A stretch of 64,000 nucleotides of DNA from Salinirubellus salinus (GTDB lineage: Archaea; Halobacteriota; Halobacteria; Halobacteriales; Haloarculaceae): contig NZ_CP104003.1 in the NCBI RefSeq assembly GCF_025231485.1, forward strand, positions 3,797,960-3,861,959. The letters run 5' to 3'. The notes below the pieces were generated by a model that saw only the letters and a program-made list of their open reading frames with translations, made no database searches and had not been told where the DNA came from. The position numbers and the translations under genes were made by a program. This document shows positions 18,503 through 59,100 of the stretch, one piece after another. Position 1 is the first letter of the stretch; each line of letters starts with the position of its first letter.

Positions 18503-20137
18503 TCACTCGAACCCGAACACGACGAGCCTCTTTCTGTCCGGTGACTGCGTGAACATCATCCGGACATCGCCGTTCGAACGGACGTATCGGTAGAACGGCG
18601 TCCCCTGCAGTCGGCGATTCTGTCGCAGGTCGACGACGAACGCGACCTCACCCGATTCGATTCGTTCCCGGTAGGAACTGTACCTCGCCGCGTTCCCCTG
18701 CGGGTCTTTCGGGGTAAACGCGACGATCTCGATGTCGTCCTGCAGGTAGTAATCCAGGGTGGTGCCGTGATAGCTGATTACGACTATAGTCTCGTCCTCG
18801 TGTTGTGCCTGATACTCCTCTATGAACCGGGCGACTTCGTCGTACCCGGTATCGGTGTTGATGGGGCTCACGGCGGAGTTGGCGACCGGCGATGGGGGGA
18901 CGATCAGCAACAGTGCGACCACCGACAGCATCACTACTCGGTCGATATCTGGTCTCGATATCGACCAGGAGTTCAGGTCCCTCAGGCGGCTGGACATGTC
19001 TGCCGCGTAGTAGATGCCCGTCACGGCCAAGACGGGGACCAGCGGGAGGATGTACCGGGGGAACTTGACCGTGAGTAGACTGACGAACAGCAGCGGTAGG
19101 ACGACCACCCACGCCAGAAAGGCTCGGTCCCGCTGTCCGTCGTTTCGCAGCCCCAGCACTCCACCGCCGAGGGTCACGATGAGGGAGAGGAGATAGAACA
19201 GTCCTACTTCGGTCGTGAGCCAGTACACGTACGTCCAGATGGGTGGCTCTCGATAGACGGTCGAACCCACCTCGATAGCGTGCCCCCCGCCGACGTGCTT
19301 TAGATTGTGACCGAGCGTCGCGCCGACAACGTACGCGACGTTTCCGACGATCGGGATATTGAACACCAGTTGGACGAACGCCCCGACCGACTCGGGAAGG
19401 CCGAGGAACTGCTTGATCAGTTCCCCAAAGTCCCGCTCGACCGGTGGGTGAGCAACAACGTAGTACGGCAGATAGACGACGGCGACGAAGGCTACCGCAC
19501 TCCCGACGAAGTACTTGGCCTGTCTAAAGCGTTGTTGCCCACCGAAATCCTGCCAGAGGAACCAGAGAACACCGAGGACGATCGGGAGTGCGTATATGAA
19601 GCCGTACGCCTTGGACGTCAGGACCCCTCCGATTGCGAGGCCGGTCCAGACGACCCATCTCGTTTCGCCGGTCCGGCCGAAACAGAGGAGCGCGTAGATG
19701 CCACCGACGAAGAAGAACGTTAGCGGCACGTCCAGAATGGCCAGTACCGATCTGGTGGCGAAGAAGTACGTCGCCCCAAGTAGAGCCCCTGCCAGCAGTC
19801 CCACCAGTCGGTCGGCGAGCAGTACACCCAGCCGGTAGGTGACGTGGACCGTCGCGAGACCGAACAGCACGACCGGAAGTCTGGCTCCGAAGGTCCCCTC
19901 CCCAAAGACGAGTTGCCCGACCCCGATGAAATATTTCGCCGTGGGTGCGATCATGTGGGTCGGGTTCACGTACGGGTCGCCCGTGACCGCCGAGTACCCG
20001 TACTGAGCGTAGAGAACCTCTCCCACATTCATCGCTCCGCGGAGATTCAGGAGATACCAGGAACAGAGAACGATCAGGAGTACGACCTCGCCGAGATGGG
20101 GGAACGCTCCGAGTGTTCGCCTGACCCGTCCCTTCAT
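18503..20137 (-). CDS. GT-C fold (GT39/ArnT-like) membrane glycosyltransferase
   Basis: 544 residues from ATG 20137 (MKGRVRRTLGAFP). I prefer this to the upstream ATG 20164 or TTG 20182 because a TATA-like CTTAATAT lies 29 nt upstream of it and a perfect palindrome fills the gap. About 11 hydrophobic spans are followed by an outward-facing C-terminal domain. The first loop reads MNVGEVLYAQYG, so the usual acidic pair is reduced to one Glu. IAPTAKYFIGVGQLVFGEGTFGARLP is the typical second element of GT39 enzymes. It should use a polyprenyl-phosphate sugar. Its bases look less GC-rich than those of neighbours (32/60 GC at 18781-18840), hinting at transfer. Confidence 0.75.
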   Translation of the reverse strand: MKGRVRRTLGAFPHLGEVVLLIVLCSWYLLNLRGAMNVGEVLYAQYGYSAVTGDPYVNPTHMIAPTAKYFIGVGQLVFGEGTFGARLPVVLFGLATVHVTYRLGVLLADRLVGLLAGALLGATYFFATRSVLAILDVPLTFFFVGGIYALLCFGRTGETRWVVWTGLAIGGVLTSKAYGFIYALPIVLGVLWFLWQDFGGQQRFRQAKYFVGSAVAFVAVVYLPYYVVAHPPVERDFGELIKQFLGLPESVGAFVQLVFNIPIVGNVAYVVGATLGHNLKHVGGGHAIEVGSTVYREPPIWTYVYWLTTEVGLFYLLSLIVTLGGGVLGLRNDGQRDRAFLAWVVVLPLLFVSLLTVKFPRYILPLVPVLAVTGIYYAADMSSRLRDLNSWSISRPDIDRVVMLSVVALLLIVPPSPVANSAVSPINTDTGYDEVARFIEEYQAQHEDETIVVISYHGTTLDYYLQDDIEIVAFTPKDPQGNAARYSSYRERIESGEVAFVVDLRQNRRLQGTPFYRYVRSNGDVRMMFTQSPDRKRLVVFGFE

Positions 20138-20157
20138 GGATTGACAGGTGTCAATCC
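20138..20157. promoter_or_regulatory. Perfect palindromic operator candidate at the GT-C gene start
   Basis: Arms GGATTGACA and TGTCAATCC with a 2-bp centre form a 20-bp perfect palindrome. It sits between the TATA-like element (20163-20171) and ATG 20137, so a bound protein would block initiation. The core TTGAC-N4-GTCAA recurs at 42354-42367. Confidence 0.55.
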
Positions 20158-20162
20158 GAGTC

Positions 20163-20171
20163 ATATTAAGT
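20163..20171 (-). promoter_or_regulatory. TATA-like promoter element of the GT-C gene
   Basis: Minus-strand ACTTAATAT lies about 29 nt before ATG 20137, the spacing expected for a leaderless archaeal promoter. It is the reason for choosing that start. Confidence 0.5.
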
Positions 20172-20279
20172 ATGCTCTGCAAAATCGGGCGCCTCGGACG
20201 GAGATGGCGCAGCTAGTGACCGCTCAGATCACGGTCGGCGGGGTCTCTGTAGCCGGTGGGAGACATCGTCCCCGACCGG

Positions 20280-21587
20280 TCAGGTTCCGTCGAACACGGT
20301 CTGCCACGTATTGCCGTCCCACATCTTCACCCGGTACGTGCCGAACGACCCTCCGTCATGCCAGCCGACGTCGGTGGGCCGTACCCACGATGACCCGTCG
20401 TAGTACTTCAGAACGGCCGACGAGGAACTGTCGGTGCTAGTCTCGAACGCCCCGAGGTCTGGCGCCGAGCCGTTGTACGGGATACTGACGTCCGTCCCTG
20501 CGTCGATGTACGGACTCCCGTCGGGGAGGCGAAGGAAATCCGGACTCGAGACGTCGACGCTGCGGAAATCGACGGGGTCGGCGTTGAAGTTCCCGCTCTC
20601 GGACGAGTTCCAGTTGCAGGTGACGACCTCTGCCTCCGAACCGATCTTGAGGTCCCATCCACCGCCACCCTTCCCGAGGGTGTTCACGATTCGGTGGACA
20701 CCCCCCGAGCTGAGGTAGAGATTCTGACTCCCGTTGTTGTAGGCGGTGCAGTTGATTACCTCTACGCCGATGTCGATGCCGGGGTTGCCGATGCCACGAG
20801 TCTCGTTTTCGAACGCGACACACTGCTCCAGACGGTGCCCACCGGTCGATTTGTCGAGGTCGCCCATCTTGAACCCGTTACCATCGCCGACGATCGACCC
20901 GCTGAGGTCACGCCCGTTCCGATAGCAGACGACCCGACGGAGGAGCGCCGGTTGATCCGGATTACTTCCGCCGTCCGACGAGCCCTTGAGGTCGATCCCA
21001 TCGTCGGAGTTGTGGTGGATGAGACAGTCCTCTATCACCGTGTTGGCGATGTTGTCGGCGGCCCGGATTCCGTCGCTATTCCCGCCGGAGACGCCGTCGT
21101 ACACCTCGCACCCTCGGACGGTGAAGCGGTCTACTCCGAGGGCACACGAGATACCGGCGCCGAAACTGTCGCCAGCTCCGTGACCGTGAATCTCACAGTC
21201 CTCGACCACGACGTTCACACACGACGACCCGTGGGCGCGGACGTTGTGGGTATCGGCGTGCATCACCTCGAACCCACGGAAGGTGGTGTACTGTGAGTTG
21301 CTGAGGTCGACCCCTTGGCCGGAGTTCTGTGTGAAGTCGAGCGTCGGGACCTCGTCCTGGTAGGCTTCGACGACGATCCGGTTCGACTCCTGCCCGGGAA
21401 GGCCCTGCAGTCTGACCGCCGTCGAGGAGGGATAGGTTCCCCCCCTGACCTTCACGACGTCGCCTGCCTGGAGGTCGACGCTCCCGTTACTGGTGTCGAT
21501 GGGGCCGAAGTCAGCCCAGGGATCGCTCAGCGACGAACCGCTGTTCACGTTGTCGCCGTTCGCGGCATCGATGTAGTACGTGGTCAT
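20280..21587 (-). CDS. Right-handed parallel beta-helix protein (tail-spike / pectate-lyase-like)
   Basis: 435 residues. After a MTTYYIDAANGDNVNSGSS start typical of secreted or spike-like beta-helix proteins, there are repeated short turns rich in Gly, Asn and Val (VVVEDCEIHGHG, FTVRGCEVYDG, NTVIEDCLIHHNSDDGIDL, VEVINCTAYNNG) that stack as a parallel beta-helix. The last 50 residues hold two aromatic motifs (YYDGSSWV, MWDGNTWQTVF) like those ending phage tail fibres. No signal peptide is visible. The start lies 5 nt after the stop of the 107-residue head-like gene, so the two are probably translated together. The fold suggests glycan binding or cleavage; no catalytic triad can be assigned. 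Confidence 0.7.
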   Translation of the reverse strand: MTTYYIDAANGDNVNSGSSLSDPWADFGPIDTSNGSVDLQAGDVVKVRGGTYPSSTAVRLQGLPGQESNRIVVEAYQDEVPTLDFTQNSGQGVDLSNSQYTTFRGFEVMHADTHNVRAHGSSCVNVVVEDCEIHGHGAGDSFGAGISCALGVDRFTVRGCEVYDGVSGGNSDGIRAADNIANTVIEDCLIHHNSDDGIDLKGSSDGGSNPDQPALLRRVVCYRNGRDLSGSIVGDGNGFKMGDLDKSTGGHRLEQCVAFENETRGIGNPGIDIGVEVINCTAYNNGSQNLYLSSGGVHRIVNTLGKGGGGWDLKIGSEAEVVTCNWNSSESGNFNADPVDFRSVDVSSPDFLRLPDGSPYIDAGTDVSIPYNGSAPDLGAFETSTDSSSSAVLKYYDGSSWVRPTDVGWHDGGSFGTYRVKMWDGNTWQTVFDGT

Positions 21588-21592
21588 GTATC

Positions 21593-21916
21593 TCAGGACG
21601 TATCTACCCAGAGATCACCCTCTGAGGGGCTGGACGGCGCACTCGACTGTACGTCGATACGCGAGACGTCGTCCGAGACGACCTCACGACCGCTCGCCAG
21701 CTGTCCGATGTACTGCCAGTTGTTTCCATCGCCCACGAACACCGCGCCAGTGTCCGTGGCCAGGAACTTCGCCCCGCTCTTTGGTTCGTAGTTCCCCCGC
21801 TTCGTCGCTTGGTCTCGTATCTCAACGTCCGTGTCGAGCCTGGTGAAGTTATCATTCAGGGGGAGGTGCCAGTCGGTGGAACCCTTCTCTGGTGTCGCGT
21901 ATCTGTGGTCGGTCAT
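21593..21916 (-). CDS. Short tail-fibre-head-like protein
   Basis: 107 residues. It shares almost all of its N-terminal 60 residues with the product of 22034-23080: YATPEKGSTDWHLPLNDNF, then DVEIRD, then SGAKFLATDTGAVFVGDGNNW. The end, SSPSEGDLWVDTS, resembles the PxxGDxWxDTS motif found before the body domain of phage tail fibres. Here the protein stops exactly at that junction and the next gene begins 5 nt later with a beta-helix body, in a different frame. It may be an adaptor, or half of a split fibre. No signal peptide. Confidence 0.65.
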   Translation of the reverse strand: MTDHRYATPEKGSTDWHLPLNDNFTRLDTDVEIRDQATKRGNYEPKSGAKFLATDTGAVFVGDGNNWQYIGQLASGREVVSDDVSRIDVQSSAPSSPSEGDLWVDTS

Positions 21917-22033
21917 GGTCGTTCTATGTCGGTGTTGAGGTCGTGAGTCGGTCCTTCCGGCCGGTGGTGACGGGGCCCGAACGCTGTCGGTCGACGAGTG
22001 GTCGTGGCGCCCTGTTGGGGGAGTGGACTGTCG

Positions 22034-23080
22034 TCAGACGATTTCATAGTTGTCGTAGACCGCTCTCTGGGTCGTCGGGTTCTTGTACGACTCGTTGTAC
22101 ATGAACCCGATTCCGCCGGACGTCCACGTCGTGTCGGCCGTCGGGTTCTGGTCTTCGACGAACACCGACCCGTCAGAGTTGTAGATAGTGTACGGCATCG
22201 TGCCGTCGGAGTTCCACGTCACTTCGAGGGTGTACACCTGCCCGGTCGAGACCTCCGTTTCGATCGCCGAGAGGGAACTCAAGCTGTCGATGTTGTGCTG
22301 GTGTCGGGTTTCTGTCACTCTTTCCATCTCGACACCCGGCGAAGCACCGGCGTCGATTCTGATCCTGTACCCCTGCTCCGGGTTCGACACGCTCCCGGTG
22401 TTCTGGACGCCCCACAGCACCCCCCCGTAGGTGTTGGCGGTGTCGATTCGCACGTCACACCTGAACGTGTCGCCGACACTCGGATAGACGGGAAGCCCAC
22501 TCACGCTCGCTATCGTCCGATAGTTGTCGTCACGGTTGTCGCCGTTCGTCCGCTCTCGCATCAGCGACCTGCTTCCGTCGATTGTCAGACTGGAATCGGA
22601 CGTGAGCTCGAACAGGGTCAGGTCCTCACCGCCGAACGCCGACAGGTCGTTCGTCTCCGCATCGAACACCGTCCCCGTCGACGTCGTTACGTCGTCGCCA
22701 CTGGAACCGCCACTGTCTGGCCCAGTCCCCGCGATTGTGAGCCAGCCGGAGGAGGTCCACACGTTCAGCCCAGCGTTTCCGGTATCGATCCAGACGTCTT
22801 TGACGCTCGGGGACTGTGGCTCTGTGTCCTGTACGAGGAGGTCCCCGTCGGACCGGTTGATGTTCCCGAAGAACTCCCACTGCGACCCGTCCCCGACGTA
22901 CACGCGTCCCGTGTCGGTTGCCAGGAATTTCGCTCCAGATTTCGGAGTGTACGAACCCTTGTTCGCGTCCGAATCCCGTATCTCGACGTCACTGTCGATG
23001 AGCTTGAAATTCTCGTTGAGCGGGATGTGCCAATCGGTCGATCCTTTCTTCGGCGTGTTGTACTGGTGGTTCTCTGTCAT
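22034..23080 (-). CDS. Tail-fibre-head-like protein with a lectin/LamG-like body
   Basis: 348 residues. The head (about 1-75) has YNTPKKGSTDWHIPLNENFKLID and SGAKFLATDTGRVYVGDGSQWEFFG, then a PQSPSVKDVWIDTG junction and NVWTSSGWLTIAG. The body (about 150-348) looks like a concanavalin/LamG-type beta-sandwich: VGDTFRCDVRIDTANTYGGV, YTLEVTWNSDGTMPYTIY, TWTSGGIGFMYN. It has no signal peptide. Together with the two downstream genes it forms a three-gene minus-strand set. The head motif is reminiscent of viral tail fibres, but the flanks are glycan genes and no other viral gene is visible. Confidence 0.65.
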   Translation of the reverse strand: MTENHQYNTPKKGSTDWHIPLNENFKLIDSDVEIRDSDANKGSYTPKSGAKFLATDTGRVYVGDGSQWEFFGNINRSDGDLLVQDTEPQSPSVKDVWIDTGNAGLNVWTSSGWLTIAGTGPDSGGSSGDDVTTSTGTVFDAETNDLSAFGGEDLTLFELTSDSSLTIDGSRSLMRERTNGDNRDDNYRTIASVSGLPVYPSVGDTFRCDVRIDTANTYGGVLWGVQNTGSVSNPEQGYRIRIDAGASPGVEMERVTETRHQHNIDSLSSLSAIETEVSTGQVYTLEVTWNSDGTMPYTIYNSDGSVFVEDQNPTADTTWTSGGIGFMYNESYKNPTTQRAVYDNYEIV

Positions 23081-24311: not shown

Positions 24312-25358
24312 CTACGACTCCGTGGCGGCGACGTCGATCCAGATGTGCGTCGATCTATCGGCGTTGTCCAGCGTCGGTTCGGGTGGTGGAGCACCGCGAT
24401 AGAGCAGGTACACGACCCGGAGGTCCTCGCCGGTCACGGATGGCCGGATCTCGTGCGCTTGACGCCACTCCTGTCCGTGTTCGAGCTGGACGTCCTCGAA
24501 CCGACGCAGTTCCTCGCGCTCCAGCACCTCGAGCGGCTCGTCGCCGGGTGGAGTCCCGTCTCCGGGGCCAACACTCGTCCGCTGGAGCACCACTACGACG
24601 TTATACGTCACCGCTCGGTGCTCGCGGTTGGTGATTCCCACCACGAGCGGTTTCGATTCGCCGCGCACGAAGGATGTCGGGTAATCGGCAGTGACGTAGT
24701 CGTCGTCACTGGTCTCGGTCAGGAGGTAGAACTCCGAGAACTGTTCACCATGACGGGGGGTAGCCGCGAGGTACGACACCGAGACCACCGAGACGACGAC
24801 GCCAGCGGCGATGACGACGACGAGCACGGTGTCGAGCGTTCCACCCTGTGAGACCCGTGTCCGTGCCGCTGTCAGCCACTGGTCTCCCCGGACCTGGAAC
24901 CGCCGGTCCGGTCCGAGTTGCTGTCGGCGATACCACGCCACCACGGCAGCCGTGCAGGTGAGTAGCGCCAGTCCGACGAACACGGGAACCGGACGGACAC
25001 CCCAGAGCGTGTAGTTCAGGACGAGTGCCAGCAGGGGACTCGTCACCAGACTCAGACCGACCGACAGTACGAGCCGTTCGAGGCCGCCGGACTCCCCCAC
25101 GACGTCGTCGAACGCGTCGTGTGCGGGATAGAGCGCCGCGACGAGAGCGTACCCCGGCCAGAGGACGACGAGCGGCAGGGCGAGTATCGGACGGACAGCG
25201 ACGAGCGACGGGAGGACCACCGCGACCGCACCGACGCAGGCGAGCAGGACGACGACTCCGAGGTCCCCGTAGCTCCAGACGAGCGAGCGGATCCGCGACC
25301 CATCACCGGTGGTCGATCTCCGCAGACCGTCTCCCGGAACCGTGGAATCCTCGTCCAT
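24312..25358 (-). CDS. DUF1616 family membrane protein
   Basis: 348 residues from the ATG at 25358 (MDEDSTVPG), which has GAGAGGTGAGAGG just upstream; a GTG four codons earlier is possible. Four hydrophobic spans lie in the first half: DLGVVVLLACVGAVAVVLPS, LPLVVLWPGYALVAALYP, VLSVGLSLVTSPLLALVLNY and VFVGLALLTCTAAVVAWY. A fifth is at about 180-205. After that comes an outward domain (FYLLTETSDDDYVTADYPTSF, then GITNREHRAVTYNVVV). This arrangement is diagnostic of DUF1616, a family common in haloarchaea and often near glycan genes. Function unknown. Confidence 0.8.
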   Translation of the reverse strand: MDEDSTVPGDGLRRSTTGDGSRIRSLVWSYGDLGVVVLLACVGAVAVVLPSLVAVRPILALPLVVLWPGYALVAALYPAHDAFDDVVGESGGLERLVLSVGLSLVTSPLLALVLNYTLWGVRPVPVFVGLALLTCTAAVVAWYRRQQLGPDRRFQVRGDQWLTAARTRVSQGGTLDTVLVVVIAAGVVVSVVSVSYLAATPRHGEQFSEFYLLTETSDDDYVTADYPTSFVRGESKPLVVGITNREHRAVTYNVVVVLQRTSVGPGDGTPPGDEPLEVLEREELRRFEDVQLEHGQEWRQAHEIRPSVTGEDLRVVYLLYRGAPPPEPTLDNADRSTHIWIDVAATES

Positions 25359-25472
25359 CTGTCCTCTCACCTCTCGGGCACGAGTACATAAATCGGTTCG
25401 CCTCGGCCATCTCCGGAGGCGAACCGGCGTCAGCGCTCCCGGCCCACGAGCTCCCCGAGAGCACGACTCACA

Positions 25473-27812
25473 TCACGTCTCTGACGGTGAACTCGCGACT
25501 ACCGCGTCGCGTATCGCGGACTGGGCGACCTCGTGGTCGACCGGCCGTAGCCCGAACGCGGCGCGTTCGTAACTGTCGACGAGTCGACGGAGTGCCGCGA
25601 CCCGTTCCTCGGCGAGGTCCGTCCCCTCACAGGCCACGAGGAACTGCCTCGGGGTACCACTGACCTCGGGGAGGAGGCGCTCCGTCAGTTCGCTCCGGGC
25701 CTGGAAGTACGCGGCCACGACGGCCTCGTCCGTCTCACCCGCACGAAGCCGTTCGTGGGCCTCGGCGAACGATGGGGCCGGCTGCCGAGGGCCTTCGGTC
25801 TCACTCACCGCGGGAGGCGAAGGGATACCTGCTGAACCGCCACCACCCCCCTCGTCCCCCTCGACGGACTCGGCGTCGTCAGTCTCGAGACTCGACACTC
25901 GTTGTCCTTCTGGCGACGGCTGCCTGCCAGAGCGACGCCGATACTCGTACAGTACCAGTCCAGCGAACGCCACGAGCGAGAGTGCGACGACCAGTCGACC
26001 GACGAACGTCGACGGGACCGAGACCCCGAAGAAGGGGTTCATGCTACCGATCCCGGTGTCGATGTCGAGCAAGTCGGAGACACTGGCGATGTCTCGACTC
26101 TCCGGCAGCGAGACGGTCGTCGAGGCTCGGTCGCCCACGAGGTTCGTGGCGGTCCCGTCGTAGACGGCCGTGACGTTCAGCGTCCTCGCCTGGCGTTCGA
26201 CCAGACCACTTCGAGGTTCGAGCGTCACGTCGTACGCACCGGAGCCGTTCGTCCGGACACTCTCCACCCCCGTGCCGTTGACGAGGATTCGGACTGTCTG
26301 TCCCCCGACGGCTCGACCCTCGCTGGTCTGGAGTCGCCCGTCGACGACGAGGTTCCCCGAGTCGAACCCTGCCGAGGTGGTGAGGTCGGTCCCGGTCTCT
26401 TCGACCGTGACCGTCCGGACGGTCTCGACAGCCCCAACAGCCGCCCTCTCGGTCGAGACGTTTATCGAGAGGCTCTGGGTGCCAGCCGGTACTCTCGCGG
26501 GGAGCGGATCGGAGACGGCGAAGGAACCGTTTTCTGCCGTCCGCACTCGCCCGAGTTCGGTGTCTCCGACGGTGACGGTCACCGGGAGTCCCCCGACGGT
26601 GACATTGTCGACGGCGACACGGCCCGAGACCCGGACAGGCTCTCCGAAACTGACGTTCGACGACACCGGGTCGACGGACATCTGGGGTCTCACCTGCTCG
26701 ACGACGACCGTGACGTTGGTCGTCGACCCGAGGTACGGGGAGGCCTCGCGTGGTCGGTACCGGACCGAGACGACCTGTCTGCCAACGTCGACCAGTACGG
26801 GTCTGATCGACACGTCGAACGTGCCGTTCCGGGTCGTCCGCACCGTCAGCGTTTCGTTCCCGAGGCGGACCCTCACGGTCGCGTTCGAGACCGACGTCCC
26901 GTTCGAGGTGGCGAGCTGGCCACTGAGGTTCAGGGGATTCACGAACGAGGCCGACTCCGACGTCACACTCGCCTGCAGTAGCGTCGGGTCGAACTCGCTC
27001 CGAATAACCGCAGTACGCTCCTCGGAGACACGGTCGGTTACGTTTCCGATGCGCCGGATCGACGGTGACAGGTCGGTGTCTGTCACCCGACCGACGGCCT
27101 GGTACACCTCGGCGAGGTCGCCCCCCTCGCGGACGACTCTCTCGGCTGTCGAGTTGAGTTCGCGCGCGAGGCGGTCGGCGCGTTCGTCTTCGCCCTCGGC
27201 TCTCGCCTCGCGATACTCGTCGAGCGTCCGCTGGTAGTCGGAGACCGCGTCGACGAACTCGTCCTGCTCCTCGGCGGTCCGGTCGAGCGTCTCCGCGACT
27301 CGGTCGTCCGAGCGGTCACGGGTCACATCAGTGATCTCGACGTACCGCTCGAGGGTGGAGTCGTACTCGTCCCCGAAGAGTTCCCGTGCCGCCTCGTACT
27401 CCCCCTCCTCGAGACGGACCGTCCCGAGATCTATCCGGGAGAGAGCCTGCGCGAGTGCCCAAGCCCGCAGAGCTGGCAACTCCGAGTCCCCTCGATAGAC
27501 CGCTGGGTCTTCGTGCTGGAGGTTCGACCTGTTCGCACCCTCCGCTCCCTCGGGCGTGGGAGTAGGTGTCTCTTGCTCCTGAACCAGCGAGTCTTCGGCA
27601 CTGGAGTGTCGAGCGGTCGGATCACCAGAATCGGCCGTGACCTCCAAACCGGACGGTGTCGACGGGTCCAACACGGTCCCCTCGACCGTCGACAAGGCGT
27701 CACCACTCGGTGTCGCCATTGCCACCGGGACCGCGACTGCGGCTACCACGGGGACGAGTGTTACGAGAACGACGAGGAGCAGTCCTAGTCGCTCTCGTTC
27801 TGATGATCGCAC
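25473..27812 (-). CDS. Membrane-anchored multidomain protein with DUF4129-like C-terminus
   Basis: 779 residues from GTG 27812. The frame runs back to 28691, but that part overlaps the divergent DUF58 gene, while GTG 27812 has a TATA-like GTTATTATC about 25 nt upstream. An N-terminal signal/anchor (LGLLLVVLVTLVPVVAAVAVP) precedes a helical region (about 100-270, many Glu/Arg, ELFGDEYDSTLERYVEIT). Two or three Ig-like carboxypeptidase-regulatory repeats follow (SGQLATSNGTSVSNATVRV, DGRLQTSEGRAVGGQTVRI), then a transmembrane span (LVVALSLVAFAGLVLYEY) and a cytoplasmic tail similar to DUF4129 (AHERLRAGETDEAVVAAYFQ, DSYERAAFGLRPVD). It is divergent from the DUF58 gene and fits the MoxR/DUF58 cluster. 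Confidence 0.75.
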   Translation of the reverse strand: MRSSERERLGLLLVVLVTLVPVVAAVAVPVAMATPSGDALSTVEGTVLDPSTPSGLEVTADSGDPTARHSSAEDSLVQEQETPTPTPEGAEGANRSNLQHEDPAVYRGDSELPALRAWALAQALSRIDLGTVRLEEGEYEAARELFGDEYDSTLERYVEITDVTRDRSDDRVAETLDRTAEEQDEFVDAVSDYQRTLDEYREARAEGEDERADRLARELNSTAERVVREGGDLAEVYQAVGRVTDTDLSPSIRRIGNVTDRVSEERTAVIRSEFDPTLLQASVTSESASFVNPLNLSGQLATSNGTSVSNATVRVRLGNETLTVRTTRNGTFDVSIRPVLVDVGRQVVSVRYRPREASPYLGSTTNVTVVVEQVRPQMSVDPVSSNVSFGEPVRVSGRVAVDNVTVGGLPVTVTVGDTELGRVRTAENGSFAVSDPLPARVPAGTQSLSINVSTERAAVGAVETVRTVTVEETGTDLTTSAGFDSGNLVVDGRLQTSEGRAVGGQTVRILVNGTGVESVRTNGSGAYDVTLEPRSGLVERQARTLNVTAVYDGTATNLVGDRASTTVSLPESRDIASVSDLLDIDTGIGSMNPFFGVSVPSTFVGRLVVALSLVAFAGLVLYEYRRRSGRQPSPEGQRVSSLETDDAESVEGDEGGGGGSAGIPSPPAVSETEGPRQPAPSFAEAHERLRAGETDEAVVAAYFQARSELTERLLPEVSGTPRQFLVACEGTDLAEERVAALRRLVDSYERAAFGLRPVDHEVAQSAIRDAVVASSPSET

Positions 27813-27830
27813 GGTACGAAAAGGTCCGCC

Positions 27831-27843
27831 GACGATAATAACG
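27831..27843 (-). promoter_or_regulatory. TATA-like promoter of the DUF4129-like gene
   Basis: Minus-strand ACGTTATTATCG centred near 27837 lies about 25 nt before GTG 27812. This spacing supports a leaderless transcript and the GTG start. Confidence 0.45.
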
Positions 27844-27981
27844 TCTTCCCCGACAGGAGGCGAGGATCTCGCAGCAGCCCCTCTATGCCCCGTTGCGTGC
27901 GGATGCGCCTCCCGAAACCGGGCCGGACCCAGCCTCGGTCGACTGCCCCGTCTGGTGGGGTCGCTGTACTGTCTGTTCGAC

Positions 27982-27991
27982 CAATATATTG
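27982..27991 (+). promoter_or_regulatory. TATA-like promoter of the DUF58 gene
   Basis: CAATATATTG centred near 27987 lies about 33 nt before ATG 28020, in otherwise GC-rich DNA. It suggests a very short leader. Confidence 0.5.
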
Positions 27992-28019
27992 AACTACACA
28001 GAAAACGACCGTATTGCCG

Positions 28020-29465
28020 ATGTGGACGATGCCGCGGGGGTGGGCAGTCGTCGCGGGAGGAGTCCTCGCGGTAGCGCTCGGCGTGGCGCTGGGGCGACCC
28101 GTGCTCCTCCTCGGCGCGGCTGGCGCCTGGTCGTGGGTGTTCGCTCGACGTATGGCCTTCGCCCGAACGGCCGCTGATGTCGCCACACGACTGAGCGTCA
28201 GCAGCACCGTAGTCAGCGAGGCTCCGCGGGCGACGGTCGAGACGGCACTGGAGACGAAGGTTGACCTGGAGCCTCCGAGCAGGATGCGGGTCGACGTCAT
28301 CCAGACGCTGCCCGCGAAGGTGGTCGCGGAGAGTGGCGTCTTCGCAGCCACGCTCGTGCCCGGGGAGACGTCGACGACCGAACGACTCCCGATTCGGTTC
28401 CCGACGGGTGGCGTCGAACGGTTCGACCTCCCCGTCGCTATCGTCTCCGACGAACGAGCTGTCTGGACGGCCTTCCACGTCGGTGACGAGTACACTGTCG
28501 ACGTCTCTCCGCGTAGGCCGGAGGCCATGTTCGACGTATCGACCCCCCCGTTCAGGACGCCCCTCACGACCGACCCTTCCTCGCTCCGTCGGTACACCCC
28601 GATTGACCCGGCGAACCGGATCGACTGGAAGGTGACGAGCCGACTCCGCGAGGCGCACGTCAAGGAGTACGAGTCCGAGGGGTTCGGCCACACGGTGCTG
28701 TTAATCGAACACGGGAGGGCGACGGCTCGGGGCGTCCCACCGGCCGGCGTCACGCTCCTCCGACACCTGCAGGACGCCGGGCTGGGGCTCGTCGAAGCGC
28801 TCTCCGAGACCACGCAGGGAGTCGGTCTGGTCGCGATCGACGACGAGGGTCCGACGACCGTCATCGAGCCGCGCGCCTCGAGGCGGAACTACGCGGACGT
28901 GCGCCGGGCCCTGAGTTCACTCGAGCCGAGCGGTGATGGCAGCCCCGAGACGAACGGCCCTGTTCCGGACCTCGACGCCATCGGCCGCGCCAGGTCGTCG
29001 CTTGAGGGCGAGGCCTCACAGTTCGCATCCCTGATTCGGCCGTTCTTCGCGGACGGAATCGCCCACGGCGAGCGGCTGGCGGCACACCCCCTGTTGCGCG
29101 CGGTCCAGACCCACGCGACGACCAGCACCGGACGGACTCGATACGTACTACTCACCGCGGGGGTCGACCGGGGTGTCATCCGAGCGGCCGTCGAGCAGCT
29201 CCAGCGGAGCGGCGCTCCCGTCTTCGTCCTGCTCCCGCCGGACGCCGCCTTCGATAGTGTCGAGACGGACGTCCACGTTGCCGTGCGAGAGGGGTCGACA
29301 GCTGTCGTCGACCAAGCGACCGTACGCGCTCGGCGCGAGGCAGCACGACAGTTCCGACAGTCACTCGGCGCGATGAACCGCGTCACAGCGGTGACGGTCG
29401 CCCCGACAGATGTCGAGTCTGCGACGGTCCAGTCTATCGAAACCCACGGGGTGGGAGACCGATGA
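28020..29465 (+). CDS. DUF58 domain membrane protein
   Basis: 481 residues from ATG 28020; a TTG two codons upstream opens the frame. Two hydrophobic stretches at the N-terminus (MPRGWAVVAGGVLAVALGVALG, PVLLLGAAGAWSWVFA) are followed by a domain ending in the DUF58 signature SLRRYTPIDPANRIDWKVTSR, then AHVKEYESEGF. The C-terminal part (about 330-470) looks like a von Willebrand A-type fold: TGRTRYVLLTAGVDRGVIRAAVEQL. DUF58 proteins work with MoxR AAA ATPases, which are encoded here at 31105-32112. Its stop overlaps the next start by four bases (ATGA), so the three plus-strand genes 28020-31068 form an operon. Confidence 0.85.
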   Translation: MWTMPRGWAVVAGGVLAVALGVALGRPVLLLGAAGAWSWVFARRMAFARTAADVATRLSVSSTVVSEAPRATVETALETKVDLEPPSRMRVDVIQTLPAKVVAESGVFAATLVPGETSTTERLPIRFPTGGVERFDLPVAIVSDERAVWTAFHVGDEYTVDVSPRRPEAMFDVSTPPFRTPLTTDPSSLRRYTPIDPANRIDWKVTSRLREAHVKEYESEGFGHTVLLIEHGRATARGVPPAGVTLLRHLQDAGLGLVEALSETTQGVGLVAIDDEGPTTVIEPRASRRNYADVRRALSSLEPSGDGSPETNGPVPDLDAIGRARSSLEGEASQFASLIRPFFADGIAHGERLAAHPLLRAVQTHATTSTGRTRYVLLTAGVDRGVIRAAVEQLQRSGAPVFVLLPPDAAFDSVETDVHVAVREGSTAVVDQATVRARREAARQFRQSLGAMNRVTAVTVAPTDVESATVQSIETHGVGDR

Positions 29466-31104: not shown

Positions 31105-32112
31105 TCAGTCGCCCGCGCTGGTCCCGTCCCCGAACCAGCGGTCCATGGCTGACCCCTCGAGGTCGAAGTCGGATCCGGGCGGTTCGACGGTGTCGACCAC
31201 GTCCTCGACGATATCTGCGGCCGACAGGTCGGACATGTTCACTTCCGGTGCTAGCACGAGTCGGTGGACCAGGACCGCGTGTGCGAGGGCGAGGACGTCA
31301 TCCGGGGTGACGAAGTCGCGTCCGTCGATCGCTGCGAGTGCCCTCGCGCCGTTGAAGAAAGCGAACAGCGCTCTGGGGGAGGCGCCGTACGTGACCTGTG
31401 GGTGGGCGCGGGATTCTTCGACCAGATCGACGATGTACTCCTTGACCGACGGTTCGACGTGTACCTCACGAACTGCCTCGCTGGCCTTCGCGATGTCGGC
31501 CGCCGTGACGACCTTCTCGACGGTTCCGGGTTCGAACTGGTGACGCTCGCCGAGACGGTCGAGGAGCGCCCGCTCGATGTCCCGGCCCGGGACCCCCATC
31601 TCCAGCTGGAACTCGAAGCGGTCACGCTGCGCGACGGGGAGGTCGAACGTCCCCGAGGTTTCGATGGGGTTCTGCGTCGCGACGACCATGAACGGGGTCG
31701 GGACCGGGAGGGTCTCCCCCTCTAGAGTCACCTGCTGCTCCTCCATCGCCTCCAGCAGGGCACTCTGTGTCTGCGGGGACCCGCGGTTGATCTCGTCCGC
31801 GATGACCACGTTCGCGAACACCGGCCCCCGCCTGAGTTCGAACTCCCCCGTCCCCTCTCGGTACACGTACGTTCCGGTGATGTCCGCGGGTCGGTGGTCG
31901 GGGGTGTACTGGATACGTCGTACGTCTAGATCGGACGCCTGGGCTAGAAGCTTCGCCGCCGTCGTCTTCCCAACTCCGGGGAGCCCCTCGATGAGGACGT
32001 GCCCCTGCACGAGAAGGGCCACGGTGAGGAGCTCGACGACGTCGGGACGACCGACGAGAACCGACTCCATCTCCTCACGGAGCGCCTCGTAGACGGCTTT
32101 GGCCTCTTCCAT
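31105..32112 (-). CDS. MoxR-family AAA+ ATPase
   Basis: 335 residues. Walker A is GLPGVGKT (43-50), Walker B is VVIADEINR (about 104-112), and sensor 1 is the VVATQNPIET strand. The C-terminal lid includes SPRALFAFFNGARALAAIDGRDFVTPDDVLALA. This layout is that of MoxR chaperone-type ATPases, which remodel or activate proteins together with DUF58 and vWA partners; those partners are encoded on both sides. A TATA-like ATATATAT at 32136-32143 lies 28 nt upstream of the ATG, so the mRNA is probably leaderless. Confidence 0.92.
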   Translation of the reverse strand: MEEAKAVYEALREEMESVLVGRPDVVELLTVALLVQGHVLIEGLPGVGKTTAAKLLAQASDLDVRRIQYTPDHRPADITGTYVYREGTGEFELRRGPVFANVVIADEINRGSPQTQSALLEAMEEQQVTLEGETLPVPTPFMVVATQNPIETSGTFDLPVAQRDRFEFQLEMGVPGRDIERALLDRLGERHQFEPGTVEKVVTAADIAKASEAVREVHVEPSVKEYIVDLVEESRAHPQVTYGASPRALFAFFNGARALAAIDGRDFVTPDDVLALAHAVLVHRLVLAPEVNMSDLSAADIVEDVVDTVEPPGSDFDLEGSAMDRWFGDGTSAGD

Positions 32113-32172: not shown

Positions 32173-33123
32173 TCACGCCCGCCAGCGGGCTATCGCACCC
32201 AGTACGGCGACGGCGACGAATCCCGATATCGCGAGCAGTGGGTCCGACTGCCGGAGGAGTGATAGGCCGATACGGAGCGGTGGAAGATCTCCCCGAGTCG
32301 AGTAGTCGACGACCACTCTGTCGTGCGGTTCGAGAAGTCCGAGTGCCAGTCGCCGGTTCCCAGGTTGGTCGATCATCGCGTTGATGAACACGCTCGGATC
32401 TCCCAGCACGACCACCCGTCCGTTCCCGATTTGTTCGACCGTGGCGACGGGGAACGAGCGTGGCTCTTCGGCCGTGTTCGTCTCTCCGTCGAACTGGTCG
32501 TTCCCGTTCACGTCGAGGTAGGCGAATCGCGAACTCGCGACGAGCACCGTCGCGTTTCCAGGGTCGACGACGGTTCCGTAGTTCAGCGTCACCTCGCTGA
32601 CGCGTCGTGTTAGCGGGTGGTCGGTGACGTTCGTCGCCCTCGGCATCGCTGGCCCCTCGGAGTTGCGGACCTCGTCGCGGAGTGGTCTCCCGTCGACTCG
32701 TGCCTCGGTTCCGAGGTTCGACAGGAGTTCGTTCGCCGGGATGGCTCCCGCACCCGCATCGGACGCGACCACGAGTGTCCCGCCTCGCTGTACGAACTGC
32801 GATATCCGTTCGGTCTCGGATTCGTCATACCCGGTCCTGGGGGCGAAGACCACCGCGACAGTTCTGCTGGGGTCCCCTGTCGGGTACCTCGCGACGTCAC
32901 TGGTCACGAGGGTCTCGGTCCCGGTCCGCTCGGCCAGTCCCACGAATTCGGACGTCCCGTCCCAGCTGGGATTGTACGCTCCGAACGTTGCCGTGGAGAA
33001 GCCCGCACCGACGACGAGACCGAGGAGGACAGCGACCACCAGCGCGGCGAGTCCGACACTCGAGAGGAAGGGTCCCCTCTCCGATGTCGGCCCCCACTCC
33101 AACAGTCGATTCCGTCGACTCAC
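32173..33123 (-). CDS. DUF4350 domain membrane protein
   Basis: 316 residues from GTG 33123, whose first bases overlap the stop of the upstream small gene. One N-terminal span (FLSSVGLAALVVAVLLGLVVGAG... about 20-42) and one C-terminal span (LLAISGFVAVAVLGAIARW) bracket an extracytoplasmic domain with RISQFVQRGGTLVVASDAGAG and NGRVVVLGDPSVFINAM. These are features of DUF4350, a ThuA-like glutamine-amidotransferase-fold family without an evident catalytic Cys. It regularly accompanies MoxR and DUF58 genes. It lies 60 nt upstream of the MoxR gene on the same strand. Confidence 0.8.
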   Translation of the reverse strand: MSRRNRLLEWGPTSERGPFLSSVGLAALVVAVLLGLVVGAGFSTATFGAYNPSWDGTSEFVGLAERTGTETLVTSDVARYPTGDPSRTVAVVFAPRTGYDESETERISQFVQRGGTLVVASDAGAGAIPANELLSNLGTEARVDGRPLRDEVRNSEGPAMPRATNVTDHPLTRRVSEVTLNYGTVVDPGNATVLVASSRFAYLDVNGNDQFDGETNTAEEPRSFPVATVEQIGNGRVVVLGDPSVFINAMIDQPGNRRLALGLLEPHDRVVVDYSTRGDLPPLRIGLSLLRQSDPLLAISGFVAVAVLGAIARWRA

Positions 33124-33515: not shown

Positions 33516-36389
33516 TCACGGGCTAGAGGTGAGCGAGGTCGGCCGCGTGCTCTCGTTCATCGTCCCTCTGTCGGGCGGTTCCCAGCCCGGTCGGGGCACG
33601 TACCACAGGTCGTCGACCTCGCCCACGAACCCGCCCGAACTGCTCGCGGCAGCCCCGATCGTGAGCGGAACCGGCGCCACCGGCGGTGCCGTGACGGCCT
33701 GCGAGTCGACCTGTTGACCGTCGAGATAGAGCTGTGCTCGGGTCCCGTTCCACGTCAGCGTCGACCGGTGCCACCGACCGTCCCTGACGGACGGACCACG
33801 GAGGATTGCAACCTCGGTCCCGTCTCCGACAGTCGCCAGCAGCCGCCCTCGCATGAGGGCGATCTGGTAGCCAGCCGCGGTCTCGAACCTGCCACCGCTG
33901 GTCTTGGCTACGATACGTGGGAACGGTCTCGAGTCGTTCTGCGGAACTCGAAACCGGACCGACAGCGTGAATCCATCCGAGCCGTTCAGTCCCTCCGACT
34001 CGTGGACCACACCTCTCACCGAGCCGTCGGTGGCCAGTGCGGTTCCGGCAGCGGTTCCGGTCCAGAGGGCGTCTGCTTCCCTGTGTGGCCCCACGACCTC
34101 GCCGTGTCGACCCTCTATGGGGTCGAAGAAGAAGTCGCCGCTGCCGGCGTCCAGCCGCCAGTGACTACTTCCATCCGCTTGGGCTTCTCGTCTGTCCCCG
34201 TCGACCGTTCCCGACCAGTTATCGGTCTGCCCCCCCGAGACGAAGGCTCCGGACTCGACGTCCGCTTCTGTCACCGCGAGAGAGCGGTTCCCGATTCGAT
34301 ACGTACCTGGATTGGCCACACGAACCGCGAACCACCCATTCGCGGTCGCCACGGTCTGGCGCCGATACGTGAACTGCTCCGCTGTCGACGGGAGGCGAAC
34401 CTCGGCATCGAGTCGAACCGTGGCGTTCGGCGGGGCGTGGCCGAAGACGACGGCCCCGGGAACGAGTCGGAACGCTTTGACACCCCCGCCGGGACTCGTG
34501 TCCACGACCCGGTAGTGACCGACGCCCGGGACGCCCGCGCCACGGCTGCCGTACCGCTCGTGCAGACGCGTCCACATCGACGCCTCGCCGGGTGACTCGC
34601 GGTCACTCCGTGTGACGACGTATCCGACGGGTCGCTCGCGCATCCGTTCGTACCAGGTCTCCGGCTTCGAGGAATGGAGGAAGGACGGATACGAGCGCTG
34701 GGCGTACGTGTACGACTTCGAGTGGTCGTTCACCAGCGAGTTGTACATCCGGACGCGGTCCCACCGACTCAGAACGTAGCTCTCTGGATACGTGAGCCCC
34801 GCGCTCGCCGCGTCCTGTTCTATGGCTCGAGCTGTGCCGTAGGTCTCGTCGTCGATGCTCGCCCCTGCCAGCATCGTGGGAGTCGGGAGGGCACTGACGA
34901 GCAACACCAGAACGAGCAGGACCGATACGACGATCCTCCCGCTCGCGGGGGGGCTGCCCCCGTCTTCGCGAGGCTGGCACTGACGAGCCCGGTGCCAGAG
35001 CGAGGCGAACGGACGACGCTCGTGTGTCCCGTCCAGGGCAGCCGTCTCGACACCGAACGGGTGGACGGTCGTTGGACGCAGCCCGACCCGTGAGGCCACG
35101 GCGACGACCGTCGCTCCCACGAGCAGCGCGACGAGTACCGACAGCTCCCCCGCGAAGCGGCGCTGAAAGAGTGCCAGCGCCAGGCACCACCAGCCGTAGG
35201 TGGCGACGACGAGCCAGTCGCGTCTTCCCTTCAGTAGAGCCGCACCGGTAGCGTACACCAGACCTGGGAGCGCGAGGAGGGGAAGCGCCCCGAAGAGTGT
35301 GAGCGGGCCGAGGACGAGCCCAAAGCGCCCCGCGAGGAGTGAACTGGCCTCGTCGATGCCGGACCCTCCCGTCGTCTGGAAGTACTCCAGTCCGGTCTCG
35401 AAGAGGCTTCGGGTGAGCGAACCATGCAGCGATGCGACGACCGACACGGCGACGAGGACCAGACCACCCCCCCAGAGGACACTTGCCTCGGTCACCTCTT
35501 GCCGCCGAGTCAGGGCCTCTGCACCGAGAGCGACCCCGGTCATCCCCGAGGCGAGTATCGCGGGCTGGAGGACGACCGTCTGCGAGTGCCAGCCGCAGAA
35601 CACGTGCGCGGCCACGACGAGTATCGATGCGAGCCAGGTGGCAACGACGAGCGGCGCGACCGCCACCGCCGGTGAGGTTGCACGCCGAACCGAATCGGCG
35701 CAGATTCCGATTGCGACGAGGCCGAGTGGGACGAGCAGCAGTAACGCACCACGCCAGGCGAGTATCTGGACTGCAATCGCCACACTGAGTCCGAACGTCG
35801 TCGTCGCACGCACGAGTCGAGGTGGCTCGGTCGTCCGCTCGTCACCGACGGTCAGCAGGAGGCCGAGCAGCACAGCCGCGAGCCAGACGAAGTCGAAGGC
35901 GTGGTGGTCGGCGTATCCGAGGGCGGTCCGGAACACGTTGGCGGGCGTCAGAGCCAGTGCTGCCGGGGCCACGACTCCGCCCCAGTGATCACCGACGAGC
36001 CGAGTACCGACGATGCCGACGAGGAGTGCCGTCGTCGCCCCGGCGGCCACCGGGTACCACGCGAGGACGTGTCCGAGGGCGGTGGGGCTTCCACCGAGGA
36101 GCGACGTCACCCACGCCAGCGTGACGACGAACAGCGGCGTCTGTCCCTGGTACTGTACGAGCGTCCCGACATCGAAGGGTCCGGCGACGTCGGCCACCAA
36201 CTGCCCGACGATGTGGCGGTAGCCGTACGGGTCGTTACCGAGGAGGACGACGCGTCCGTCTCTGAAGACCGATTCGAACACCTGCACTCGGAGGAGTAGC
36301 AACAGTACACCGACCCCGAGGAGGGCTACCGAGAGCGCACCCACCGCCGTAACAGAACCGCTGCTCGCCTCGGTCGACCCACGTTTCAT
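33516..36389 (-). CDS. STT3-like oligosaccharyltransferase-type protein with C-terminal LamG-like domain
   Basis: 957 residues. About 12-13 hydrophobic spans (to about residue 450) carry STT3/AglB-like loops: GNDPYGYRH (51-59), matching the first acidic metal motif, and GYADHHAFDF (158-167), matching the second. The WWDYG motif expected after the membrane part is replaced by SRWDRVRMYN (about 541-550). The C-terminal region (about 790-940) reads as a LamG/concanavalin beta-sandwich: DGFTLSVRFRVPQND, WHRSTLTWNGTRAQLYLDG, FVGEVDDLWYVP. STT3 proteins move lipid-linked glycans to Asn of secreted proteins. Here the loss of WWDYG and the added lectin-like domain raise doubt about the acceptor. No glycan operon partner adjoins it directly. 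Confidence 0.75.
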   Translation of the reverse strand: MKRGSTEASSGSVTAVGALSVALLGVGVLLLLLRVQVFESVFRDGRVVLLGNDPYGYRHIVGQLVADVAGPFDVGTLVQYQGQTPLFVVTLAWVTSLLGGSPTALGHVLAWYPVAAGATTALLVGIVGTRLVGDHWGGVVAPAALALTPANVFRTALGYADHHAFDFVWLAAVLLGLLLTVGDERTTEPPRLVRATTTFGLSVAIAVQILAWRGALLLLVPLGLVAIGICADSVRRATSPAVAVAPLVVATWLASILVVAAHVFCGWHSQTVVLQPAILASGMTGVALGAEALTRRQEVTEASVLWGGGLVLVAVSVVASLHGSLTRSLFETGLEYFQTTGGSGIDEASSLLAGRFGLVLGPLTLFGALPLLALPGLVYATGAALLKGRRDWLVVATYGWWCLALALFQRRFAGELSVLVALLVGATVVAVASRVGLRPTTVHPFGVETAALDGTHERRPFASLWHRARQCQPREDGGSPPASGRIVVSVLLVLVLLVSALPTPTMLAGASIDDETYGTARAIEQDAASAGLTYPESYVLSRWDRVRMYNSLVNDHSKSYTYAQRSYPSFLHSSKPETWYERMRERPVGYVVTRSDRESPGEASMWTRLHERYGSRGAGVPGVGHYRVVDTSPGGGVKAFRLVPGAVVFGHAPPNATVRLDAEVRLPSTAEQFTYRRQTVATANGWFAVRVANPGTYRIGNRSLAVTEADVESGAFVSGGQTDNWSGTVDGDRREAQADGSSHWRLDAGSGDFFFDPIEGRHGEVVGPHREADALWTGTAAGTALATDGSVRGVVHESEGLNGSDGFTLSVRFRVPQNDSRPFPRIVAKTSGGRFETAAGYQIALMRGRLLATVGDGTEVAILRGPSVRDGRWHRSTLTWNGTRAQLYLDGQQVDSQAVTAPPVAPVPLTIGAAASSSGGFVGEVDDLWYVPRPGWEPPDRGTMNESTRPTSLTSSP

Positions 36390-49061: not shown

Positions 49062-52000
49062 CTACGGCTGCTCCGATCGCCCACGTCTCGTCCGCCGCCG
49101 CAGCCCCAGCAGTCCGAGCAGGAGCCCGAGGAGCGCCGTCCACGGCCCGAACCCGGGGCCATCGGCCGCCGACGTGGCCGTGGTGGGTGCCGTCGGTGAC
49201 CCAGTCTCGGTCGTCGTGACGGTCGCGGTCGCCGCCGTCGGTGACGCCGTGGACGACGCCGTCGGCGTGACGGCCGTGGTCGGCGTCGGGGTCGTGGTTA
49301 CGGTCACCGTGACGGTCGGTGTGGCCGTGGGCGTCACCGCCGGTGTCGGCGTCGGTGTCGGTTCAGGTGCCGGAGTCCGCGCTGGCGTCGGGGTGGGGGT
49401 CGGCGTGGGCTCCGGGTCCCGCCCGTCGCTGTCGCTCCCGTCCGGCGTCGTGTCGTCCCCCGTCGTGGGCGACCCCGTGTCACCGGATTCGGAGCCGACG
49501 GTGAACGTCAGCGTCTCGGTGTGGGTGTTGTCCGCCCGGTCGACGACGACGACCTCCAGCGTGTGTGTGGAACCGTCCGTCAGCCCGGTCGCCTCGAACT
49601 CGGTGAACGTGCTCGTGACGGTGGTCGCGGGGTCGGTCGTGACCAGCGCGCCGTCGAACAGCACCCCGACCCGACCCGTTTCCACGCCGCTGAGTGCGTC
49701 CGCGTACTCGACCCGGAGCGTCGCGGCCGTGGTCCCGGCCGGCAGCTCCTCACCGTCCGACGGTATCGTCGCCGTGACGGTCGGCGGCGCGCGGTCGCTC
49801 GCGACCGCCCCGTAGGTCGAGAAGTGGGTCACGGTCGCGACCCAGTACTCGTCGGTCGTCCCGTCGACGGTGACGTTCTCGACGGTCGTCGGCACGTCCG
49901 ACCACCGGCCGGTCGTCTCGTTGTAGAAGCGGACGGTCACGTCCTCAACGTCGGTGCCGGACGCGAGTCGCGACCGGTTCACGGGGACACCGACGAGGGC
50001 GTGGTCGAGGTTCGCCGAGAGCTGACTCCCGATCTCCGCGTCGAGGAACGCCACGCCCGAGGGCTCACTTGCGAGCGGGGCGAGTGGCGAGTCGCTCTCG
50101 GTCACCGTGACGAACGTGTCGGTCACCGTCTGGCTCGCGGTGAACCTGACGAACAGGCCCGAGGGCACGAGCCGGACGGTGATGGTACCGTTCGCGTCCG
50201 TGCTGGCGGTCGTGACGAGTGCCGTCGCGGTGTCGTTGCCGCGGTTCCCCGCGAGGTCGGCGCCCGCCGAGACGAGGCCGTACTGCCCCTCGCCGGCGAG
50301 CGTGACGGTCCCGTTCCAGTGGCCCCCCTCGTCGGTCAGGGCGACCGGGACGACTGTGCCGTCTGGTCGCTCGACATCGAGGGTGAGCGATCCCGGTCGG
50401 ACCGGTTCGTCCGGCGCGACGGTCACCGCCGCGGCGGTCGCGTTCAGCCGGGTGACCGTCGCCGGCACGTTCGGGACCGCACGGTCGACGACGACCCGGT
50501 CGGCAGCCGCGACGGTCCGGCGGTTGCCCCGGTCGTCGACGGCCGTGACGACCACGTCGTACGCGCCGTCGTCGGGGAGTCGACTGGTTGGAATCGAGGC
50601 CGTCCAGTCGCCGGTCGCCGAGTCGTACTCGACGCTGCCGGACTCGGTGCCGCCGTCGAGAGACCCGATGGGTTTCGAGGCCGTCCCGTCGTCGGTCCCC
50701 GCGTCGTACGTCGCGTCAACCGTCTCCTCGAAGGTGGTGAACCGGGCGTCGAGTGTCACGCGCACGGCGTCGACTGTCCCGGTCGCGTCGGTGGCGTCGA
50801 CGGTGAAGTCGACGCTCTCGTTCGCGTAGACGGTCGACCCGTCACGTGCGGCGCCCGTCACCGCGACGTCGTGGACGGTCGGGGCGTCGGCGTCTTCACC
50901 GGTGCCGCCGAGGGTGACCTCGACTTCGGGCTCGTCCGGGTCGTCCGAGAGCACCGTAAGCGTGGCCTCGGCCGGGCCGGTGGCTGTCGGCGCGTACGCC
51001 ACGGTGAGTTCGTGGGTGCCGCCGTAGCCGAGCACCGCCGATCCAGTACCCGAAACCACTTCGAACGCACTGGCGTTCGGGCCCGAGAGCGCCGTGCCCG
51101 AGACGGTCAGATTCCGGTCGCCGACGTTGGCGACGGTGACTGTCTTCGTGGCGTTCCCGCCGGCGGGAACGGTCCCGAACTCGAGGTCGGTCGGGGTGAC
51201 CACGACGTCGGCGACCCCGGAGCTGGAGGCGTCGACGACGGTGACGGTCACCGGGACGAACGTGGAGTACTCGCCCTCGGCGTCGCGGATGCGGTAGACG
51301 TAGGAGTCGACGCCGACGAAACCGGGATCGGGCGTGTAGCTGAAACTCCCGTCCTGCGCGGAGCGATGGAGCGTACCGTTGTTGGGGTCGCTGTGATGGC
51401 TCGCGTCGAAAGTGTGGCCGTCGACGTCGTAGTCGTTCGCCAGCCGACCGGGGGCGTCCACCGTGAGCGTCTCACCCTGAACGACGACGTACTCGTCCGA
51501 GACCGCGGTCGGGGCGCGGTTCGTCGGGGGGAGCACCTCGATGGTGACGGTGGCGAACGAGGAGTACTCGCCCTCGGCGTCGCGGATGCGGTAGACGTAG
51601 GAGTCGGTGCCGACGAAGCCGGGGTCCGGCAGGTACTGGAAGCTCCCGTCCTGCGCCGAGCGGTGGAGCGTGCCGTTGTCGGTGTCGCCGTGGTGGCTCG
51701 CGCCGAACGAATCGCCGTCCGGGTCGCGGTCGTTGGCCAGGCGACCGGGGCCGCTCACGTTCAGCCACTCGCCCGCGTGGACCGAGTAGGAGTCGTCGAC
51801 GGCCTGCGGCGGCCGGTTCGGGTCCGGGAGTACCTCGATGGTGACCGTCTCGAAAGCCGAGTACGTGCCGTGCTCGTCGCGGACGCGGTAGACGTAGGAG
51901 TCGATGCCGACGAAGCCGTCGTCCGGGAGATATTCGAAACTCCCGTCCTGTGCCGAGCGGTAGAGCGTGCCGTCGTCGGTGTCGCCGTGGTGGCTCGCGT

Positions 52001-59003: not shown

Positions 59004-59027
59004 TAGGATACTCTCCCTTCCTCGGTC

Positions 59028-59034
59028 GATATAT
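59028..59034 (-). promoter_or_regulatory. TATA-like promoter of the giant surface protein gene
   Basis: Minus-strand GCATATAT is centred 28 nt before ATG 59003. It faces the promoter of the regulator at 59133 across a 130-nt gap. Confidence 0.5.
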
Positions 59035-59100
59035 GCAGCCACCGGGTGTCGTTCGGGACCCGGACGCGTTCCGGAAGCCGAAACAGGCCCGGAGTACGAA

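Follow-up and report, generated by a model that had tools for sequence, protein, structure and literature searches.

A WWDYG-less STT3 paralogue with a LamG tail in Salinirubellus salinus and a candidate second class of haloarchaeal oligosaccharyltransferase

The window, that is, the whole stretch of 64,000 nucleotides of Salinirubellus salinus DNA that was analysed, carries the gene for an STT3 paralogue, here called P0001, next to a block of genes for DUF4350, MoxR-type, DUF58, DUF4129 and DUF1616 proteins (Table 1). The start of the DUF4129 gene is probably downstream of the one listed, because the listed ORF and the DUF58 gene overlap. Genes for DUF1616, DUF4129 and DUF58 proteins recur near STT3-LamG genes in Haladaptatus and Halorientalis, and the block is found in part in genomes G003 and G094; in the tree described below, P0001 does not cluster with the loci that have the DUF1616/DUF58 block. 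Further off in the window are two PMT-type GT-C membrane transferases (821-2581 and 18503-20182), with genes for GT4 enzymes, asparagine-synthase-like and arylsulfotransferase-like proteins in the same 20 kb. Amid these glycan genes, at 20280-23080, lie a right-handed beta-helix protein and a pair of small proteins that look tail-fibre-like, the pair repeating each other at their N-termini (KGSTDWH.PLN.NF). At 49062-59042, a minus-strand ORF of 3326 aa overlaps a plus-strand ORF of 2081 aa.

Table 1. Features of the P0001 locus (positions in the window; residues are those of P0001)
Feature	Position	Strand	Basis or remark
DUF1616 membrane protein	24312..25370	-	common to STT3-LamG loci of Haladaptatus, Halorientalis, genomes G003 and G094
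DUF4129-bearing protein, same block	25473..28691	-	true start probably downstream
Homologue of gene annotated DUF58 in Haladaptatus	28014..29465	+	
MoxR-type AAA ATPase	31105..32112	-	
DUF4350 protein	32173..33123	-	
P0001 CDS, WWDYG-less STT3 paralogue with LamG tail	33516..36389	-	ATG start, 957 aa
LamG / ConA-like domain, residues 739-942	33564..34175	-	Laminin_G_3 profile and sandwich fold
AglB_L1-type peripheral beta domain, residues 645-715	34245..34457	-	Pfam; common to canonical AglB
SRWDRVRMYN (replaces SWWDYGHWIT), residues 541-550	34740..34769	-	alignment and model
GT-C membrane domain of STT3 fold, residues 12-510	34860..36356	-	model secondary structure; 3WAJ match
QRRF, residues 409-412, R411 = AfAglB R426, phosphate site	35154..35165	-	profile alignment to 3WAJ
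TIXE equivalent, residues 344-347, E347 = AfAglB E360	35349..35360	-	profile alignment to 3WAJ
Second metal loop GYADHHAFD, residues 158-166, D161 and H163	35892..35918	-	profile alignment to 3WAJ
First metal loop GNDPYGYR, residues 51-58, D53 = AfAglB D47	36216..36239	-	profile alignment to 3WAJ

The Pfam match of P0001 to STT3 is weak (23.3 bits, with 25.4 bits for AglB_L1), and its residues 793-929 match Laminin_G_3 with 59 bits, far above the cut-off. An AlphaFold model built with 70 aligned sequences (mean pLDDT 86.5) has the fold of STT3, AglB and PglB, with a GT-C membrane part and a C-terminal globular domain. The best match of model residues 20-720 is AfAglB (3WAJ; Z 39.3, 596 residues aligned, 3.8 Å), and the same fold is seen in PglB of Campylobacter and the eukaryotic STT3A/B, at Z 27-37. 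Residues 739-942 match sandwiches of the ConA/LamG type (Z 19.8, AbnA domain 4). The sequence-only reading had described the C-terminus as a lectin-like sandwich that canonical AglB does not have; profile and fold agree with the description, and the segment has no counterpart in the 1020-aa AglB of the same genome. The LamG domain of P0001, which would be extracellular, would probably hold the acceptor or a surface glycan, and is a dispensable addition. Among the relatives of P0001, Laminin_G_3 was found in all 14 long members scanned. The tail occurs in a minority of the family, and since the LamG-tailed proteins are scattered in the tree among tail-less members, it has probably been gained or lost more than once. 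For the same reason LamG as the mark of a single clade was rejected as the simplest reading; the group statistic for LamG, which was counted against canonical rows only, does not demonstrate a single origin. The tail is an accessory and not a family hallmark.

Four STT3 proteins are encoded in the Salinirubellus genome, namely one canonical AglB (1020 aa, with VISWWDYGHW and 862.7 bits in TIGR04154) and three WWDYG-less paralogues, including P0001. Against the TIGR04154 cut-off of 450 bits, P0001 scores 145.6 and the other paralogues 114-141. In the tree, the canonical AglBs, both haloarchaeal and from other archaeal classes, are separated from the paralogues by a branch with support 100. The identity of P0001 as a canonical AglB is thus ruled out by the cut-off, the missing WWDYG and the tree position. 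It had been suggested from the sequence that P0001 is a paralogue, and that the genome be checked for a separate AglB with WWDYG and the phylogeny for clustering with known AglB; the separate AglB is there, and P0001 lies on the opposite side of the 100-support branch. Canonical AglB (TIGR04154, 3WAJ/7E9S) and the family are alike in the STT3 fold, the GND and DHH loops, the TIXE Glu, the QxRF Arg and AglB_L1. Unlike the family, which falls far below the TIGR04154 cut-off and in a subset carries a LamG tail, canonical AglB has WWDYG and, in the sample, no PF02397 gene within 20 kb.

The family was searched for in 146 genomes of the taxonomic family, 155 of the order and 197 of the phylum, together with a named genome collection. 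In these searches, close relatives turned up widely within Halobacteria and nowhere else; outside the class there were only remote matches in the phylum, nine of which were aligned, eight having WWDYG and one WWSYG. Members carry automatic RefSeq names (STT3 domain-containing, LamG-like jellyroll fold domain-containing, or hypothetical). No curated model covers the paralogue family, and no publication on it, nor any analysis of its function or motif, was found in the openly readable literature. No phage record matched the Halobacterium family member, in a search bearing on viral origin. P0001 is among the most divergent members, with a terminal branch longer than any other in the tree (1.37 changes per column) and a weak sister, L127. 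Four members (L120, L123, L124, L129) are apparently split or frameshifted and are possibly decaying copies.

The catalytic centre of P0001 can be read against that of AfAglB, in which D47, D161 and H163 are metal ligands, E360 is the TIXE Glu and R426 is near the phosphate site (PMC8342417). In addition to the equivalences given in Table 1, D161 and H163 of P0001 correspond to AfAglB residues of the same number, so that the metal ligands D, D and H and the TIXE Glu, the residues that mark the STT3 superfamily, are all kept. The two acidic metal loops noticed in the sequence are confirmed, as both map onto the solved AfAglB. An alignment of 116 paralogues, drawn from the order-wide genomes and the named loci, keeps D53 in 116, D161 in 114, H163 in 110, and E347 and R411 in 115 each. 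In a divergent subclade (L181-L183, L186, L191, L192) the DHH loop has become EHR or DHQ, and these proteins are thereby without the third metal ligand, the rest being kept. Because the metal and catalytic residues of AfAglB, including the TIXE Glu, are all kept in P0001, a protein amide would be the favoured acceptor, with other acceptors possible.

The Ser/Thr pocket of AglB is formed by WWDYG plus DK (PMC8342417, PMC3703281). At the position of SWWDYG, all 116 aligned paralogues have a motif of the VxSxWxxNRxxN type, with W543 in 115, R547 in 115 and N550 in 116 of them; the WWD triad is found in none. The residue after the conserved W is Gly in 88 and Ser in 16 of the 116, and P0001 and five other paralogues keep D there. 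P0001 itself carries VLSRWDRVRMYN, with V546 where the family usually has N, and V546 and D555 both deviate from near-invariant positions. In register, SRWDR of P0001 faces SWWDY, so that W543-D544 correspond to the second W and the D of WWDYG; P0001 lacks the first W, the Y, the G and the residues that follow. The earlier claim that SRWDRVRMYN replaces WWDYG is therefore right as to the absence of WWDYG, but two of its residues stay in place. The model has a strand at 538-540 and a helix at 543-554 (pLDDT about 95), and the motif sits at the strand-to-helix junction, as WWDYG does in AglB. The DK/MI kinked-helix region is much shorter in P0001, and no alignment of it to AfAglB was obtained. 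Since V546 is unusual and W-D is in register with WWDYG, the pocket of P0001 may differ from that of its family. The idea that the paralogue has another acceptor sequence is borne out as far as paralogy and a conserved motif change go; an altered acceptor rule fits, because the motif at the acceptor site differs and is conserved across 116 proteins.

What, then, would be the donor? PF02397 enzymes make polyprenyl-pyrophosphate-linked sugars, and they also start exopolysaccharides. In the order-wide sample, PF02397 is present in 72 of the 74 genomes with a paralogue vs 29 of the 81 without (Fisher p about 1e-17, a value that is indicative only and overstates independence, the rows being related genomes); the exceptions are those 29 genomes and two with a paralogue and no PF02397. 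The PF02397 gene, usually single-copy per genome, lies less than 20 kb from the paralogue in 46 of 74 genomes and from canonical AglB in 0 of 50. Among the named loci it is at most 9 kb from the paralogue in 36 of 75, and at most 7 kb away in nine of the 14 LamG-tailed ones; genes for sugar epimerases, nucleotidyltransferases, GT4 enzymes and PF02397 sugar transferases recur around named members. Within the genus Halobacterium, three of 13 genomes have both genes, no more than about 8 kb apart, nine have neither and one has the paralogue only, so that the two genes agree in presence or absence in 12 of the 13. This genomic association is the strongest finding of the analysis. We infer from the type of product of PF02397 enzymes that the family uses a dolichol-pyrophosphate glycan. 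Because such enzymes also start exopolysaccharides, the linkage is no proof of a protein acceptor. No PF02397 gene lies near P0001; the single one of its genome sits 2.7 kb from another paralogue. P0001 itself lies in the DUF58/MoxR/DUF4129/DUF1616 block. As P0001 is divergent and has no PF02397 gene nearby, conclusions about the family carry over to it less confidently.

The S-layer glycoprotein of Halobacterium salinarum is a case to which this linkage may apply. Its Asn-2 glycan, a repeating one, is built on dolichol pyrophosphate (PMC2952790; also PMC4335974) and is still attached after replacement of Ser-4 by Val, Leu or Asn, a result left without explanation (PMC2952790). No second transferase for Asn-2 was found in the genome (PMC2952790; also PMC4335974, PMC6591318), and whether AglB makes the Asn-2 glycan is unclear (PMC6591318). 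In Hbt. salinarum DSM 3754, the paralogue adjoins a glmS-like gene, two nucleotidyltransferase genes and PF02397, and the gene of the S-layer glycoprotein is 3.3 kb off; the genomic link comes from this type strain, while the published experiments used laboratory strains. The arrangement in Halobacterium sp. CBA1126 is similar, with one nucleotidyltransferase; in a third Halobacterium species the block is complete, but the S-layer-like match there is weak. The DSM 3754 S-layer glycoprotein (L109:2806-5346) reads ...GGAAA/ANADQVL at its presumed mature start, where the slash marks the presumed cut, so that by position its Asn-2 would stand in N-A-D, not N-A-S, provided that signal peptide cleavage is the same as in the published strain; the site of the Ser-4 experiments would then be a non-sequon by nature in this strain. 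A second N-oligosaccharyltransferase of Hbt. salinarum would have to use a dolichol-pyrophosphate donor and do without Ser/Thr at +2; its link to the family is a genomic one. As a hypothesis, a WWDYG-less class tied to PF02397 fits each of the Asn-2 points. A tempting but tentative proposal is that haloarchaea have their missing second N-oligosaccharyltransferase in this family, which would use a dolichol-pyrophosphate donor and act on Asn without the Asn-X-Ser/Thr sequon.

We propose that P0001 is a member of a second haloarchaeal class of oligosaccharyltransferase, with a rebuilt acceptor site and an intact catalytic centre, and give this reading a probability of roughly 0.55. An enzyme of the family would take a glycan from dolichol pyrophosphate and transfer it, outside the cell, to the amide side chain of Asn in surface proteins. 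PglB and STT3A/B use pyrophosphate-linked donors, as may the family, and both keep WWDYG.

An alternative explanation concerns the acceptor. The family might attach dolichol-pyrophosphate-linked surface polysaccharide to an acceptor that is not Asn (an O-site, a lipid anchor or another polysaccharide) in exopolysaccharide assembly. The genes for PF02397, epimerases, GT4, flippase and sulfatase proteins around many members do look like polysaccharide clusters, and the site that reads Ser/Thr is rebuilt. However, the amide-activating site still has the TIXE Glu and its full set of metal ligands, the AglB peripheral domain is retained in the family, and the Halobacterium module is near the S-layer glycoprotein gene. 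We regard this alternative as rather unlikely, and the earlier suggestion that P0001 transfers a glycan to a polysaccharide or lipid finds no support, the kept metal and catalytic residues, the TIXE Glu among them, favouring a protein amide.

Could the family instead be an ordinary second AglB, which follows the same sequon rule with a pocket made of other residues and differs only in its donor? The modelled strand-to-helix junction, the D that P0001 and five others keep beside the conserved W, and the precedent of Archaeoglobus, whose three AglB paralogues all have the same pocket type (PMC3703281), are consistent with it. The prevalence of Gly and Ser at that position, the lack of WWD throughout the 116 proteins and the Asn-2 glycosylation of Hbt. 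salinarum without need of Ser (PMC2952790) argue against it and make it improbable. Least likely, a degenerating or neofunctionalised, inactive P0001, which might serve as a glycan-binding partner by means of its LamG domain, would account for the long terminal branch, the off-consensus V546 and D555 and the want of a PF02397-type pathway gene beside it, but fits poorly with an open frame of 957 codons in which every catalytic residue is kept, with a high-confidence model and with similar gene blocks that hold STT3-LamG genes in other genera.

Returning to the second-class reading, it would mean that a previously undescribed type of oligosaccharyltransferase is widespread in haloarchaea, with P0001 as a divergent, LamG-tailed member. 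The Asn-X-Ser/Thr rule and WWDYG are commonly taken as general marks of N-glycosylation; here is a family that keeps the catalytic centre, swaps the sequon-reading motif and travels with a pyrophosphate-donor gene. It puts forward a definite candidate gene for a finding that has lacked an explanation since 1998, the sequon-independent glycosylation of Asn-2: if the proposal is true, sequon-free Asn glycosylation would explain the outcome of the Ser-4 exchanges on the Halobacterium S-layer glycoprotein. The family is, likewise, a candidate for how one haloarchaeon may carry two chemically distinct N-glycans.
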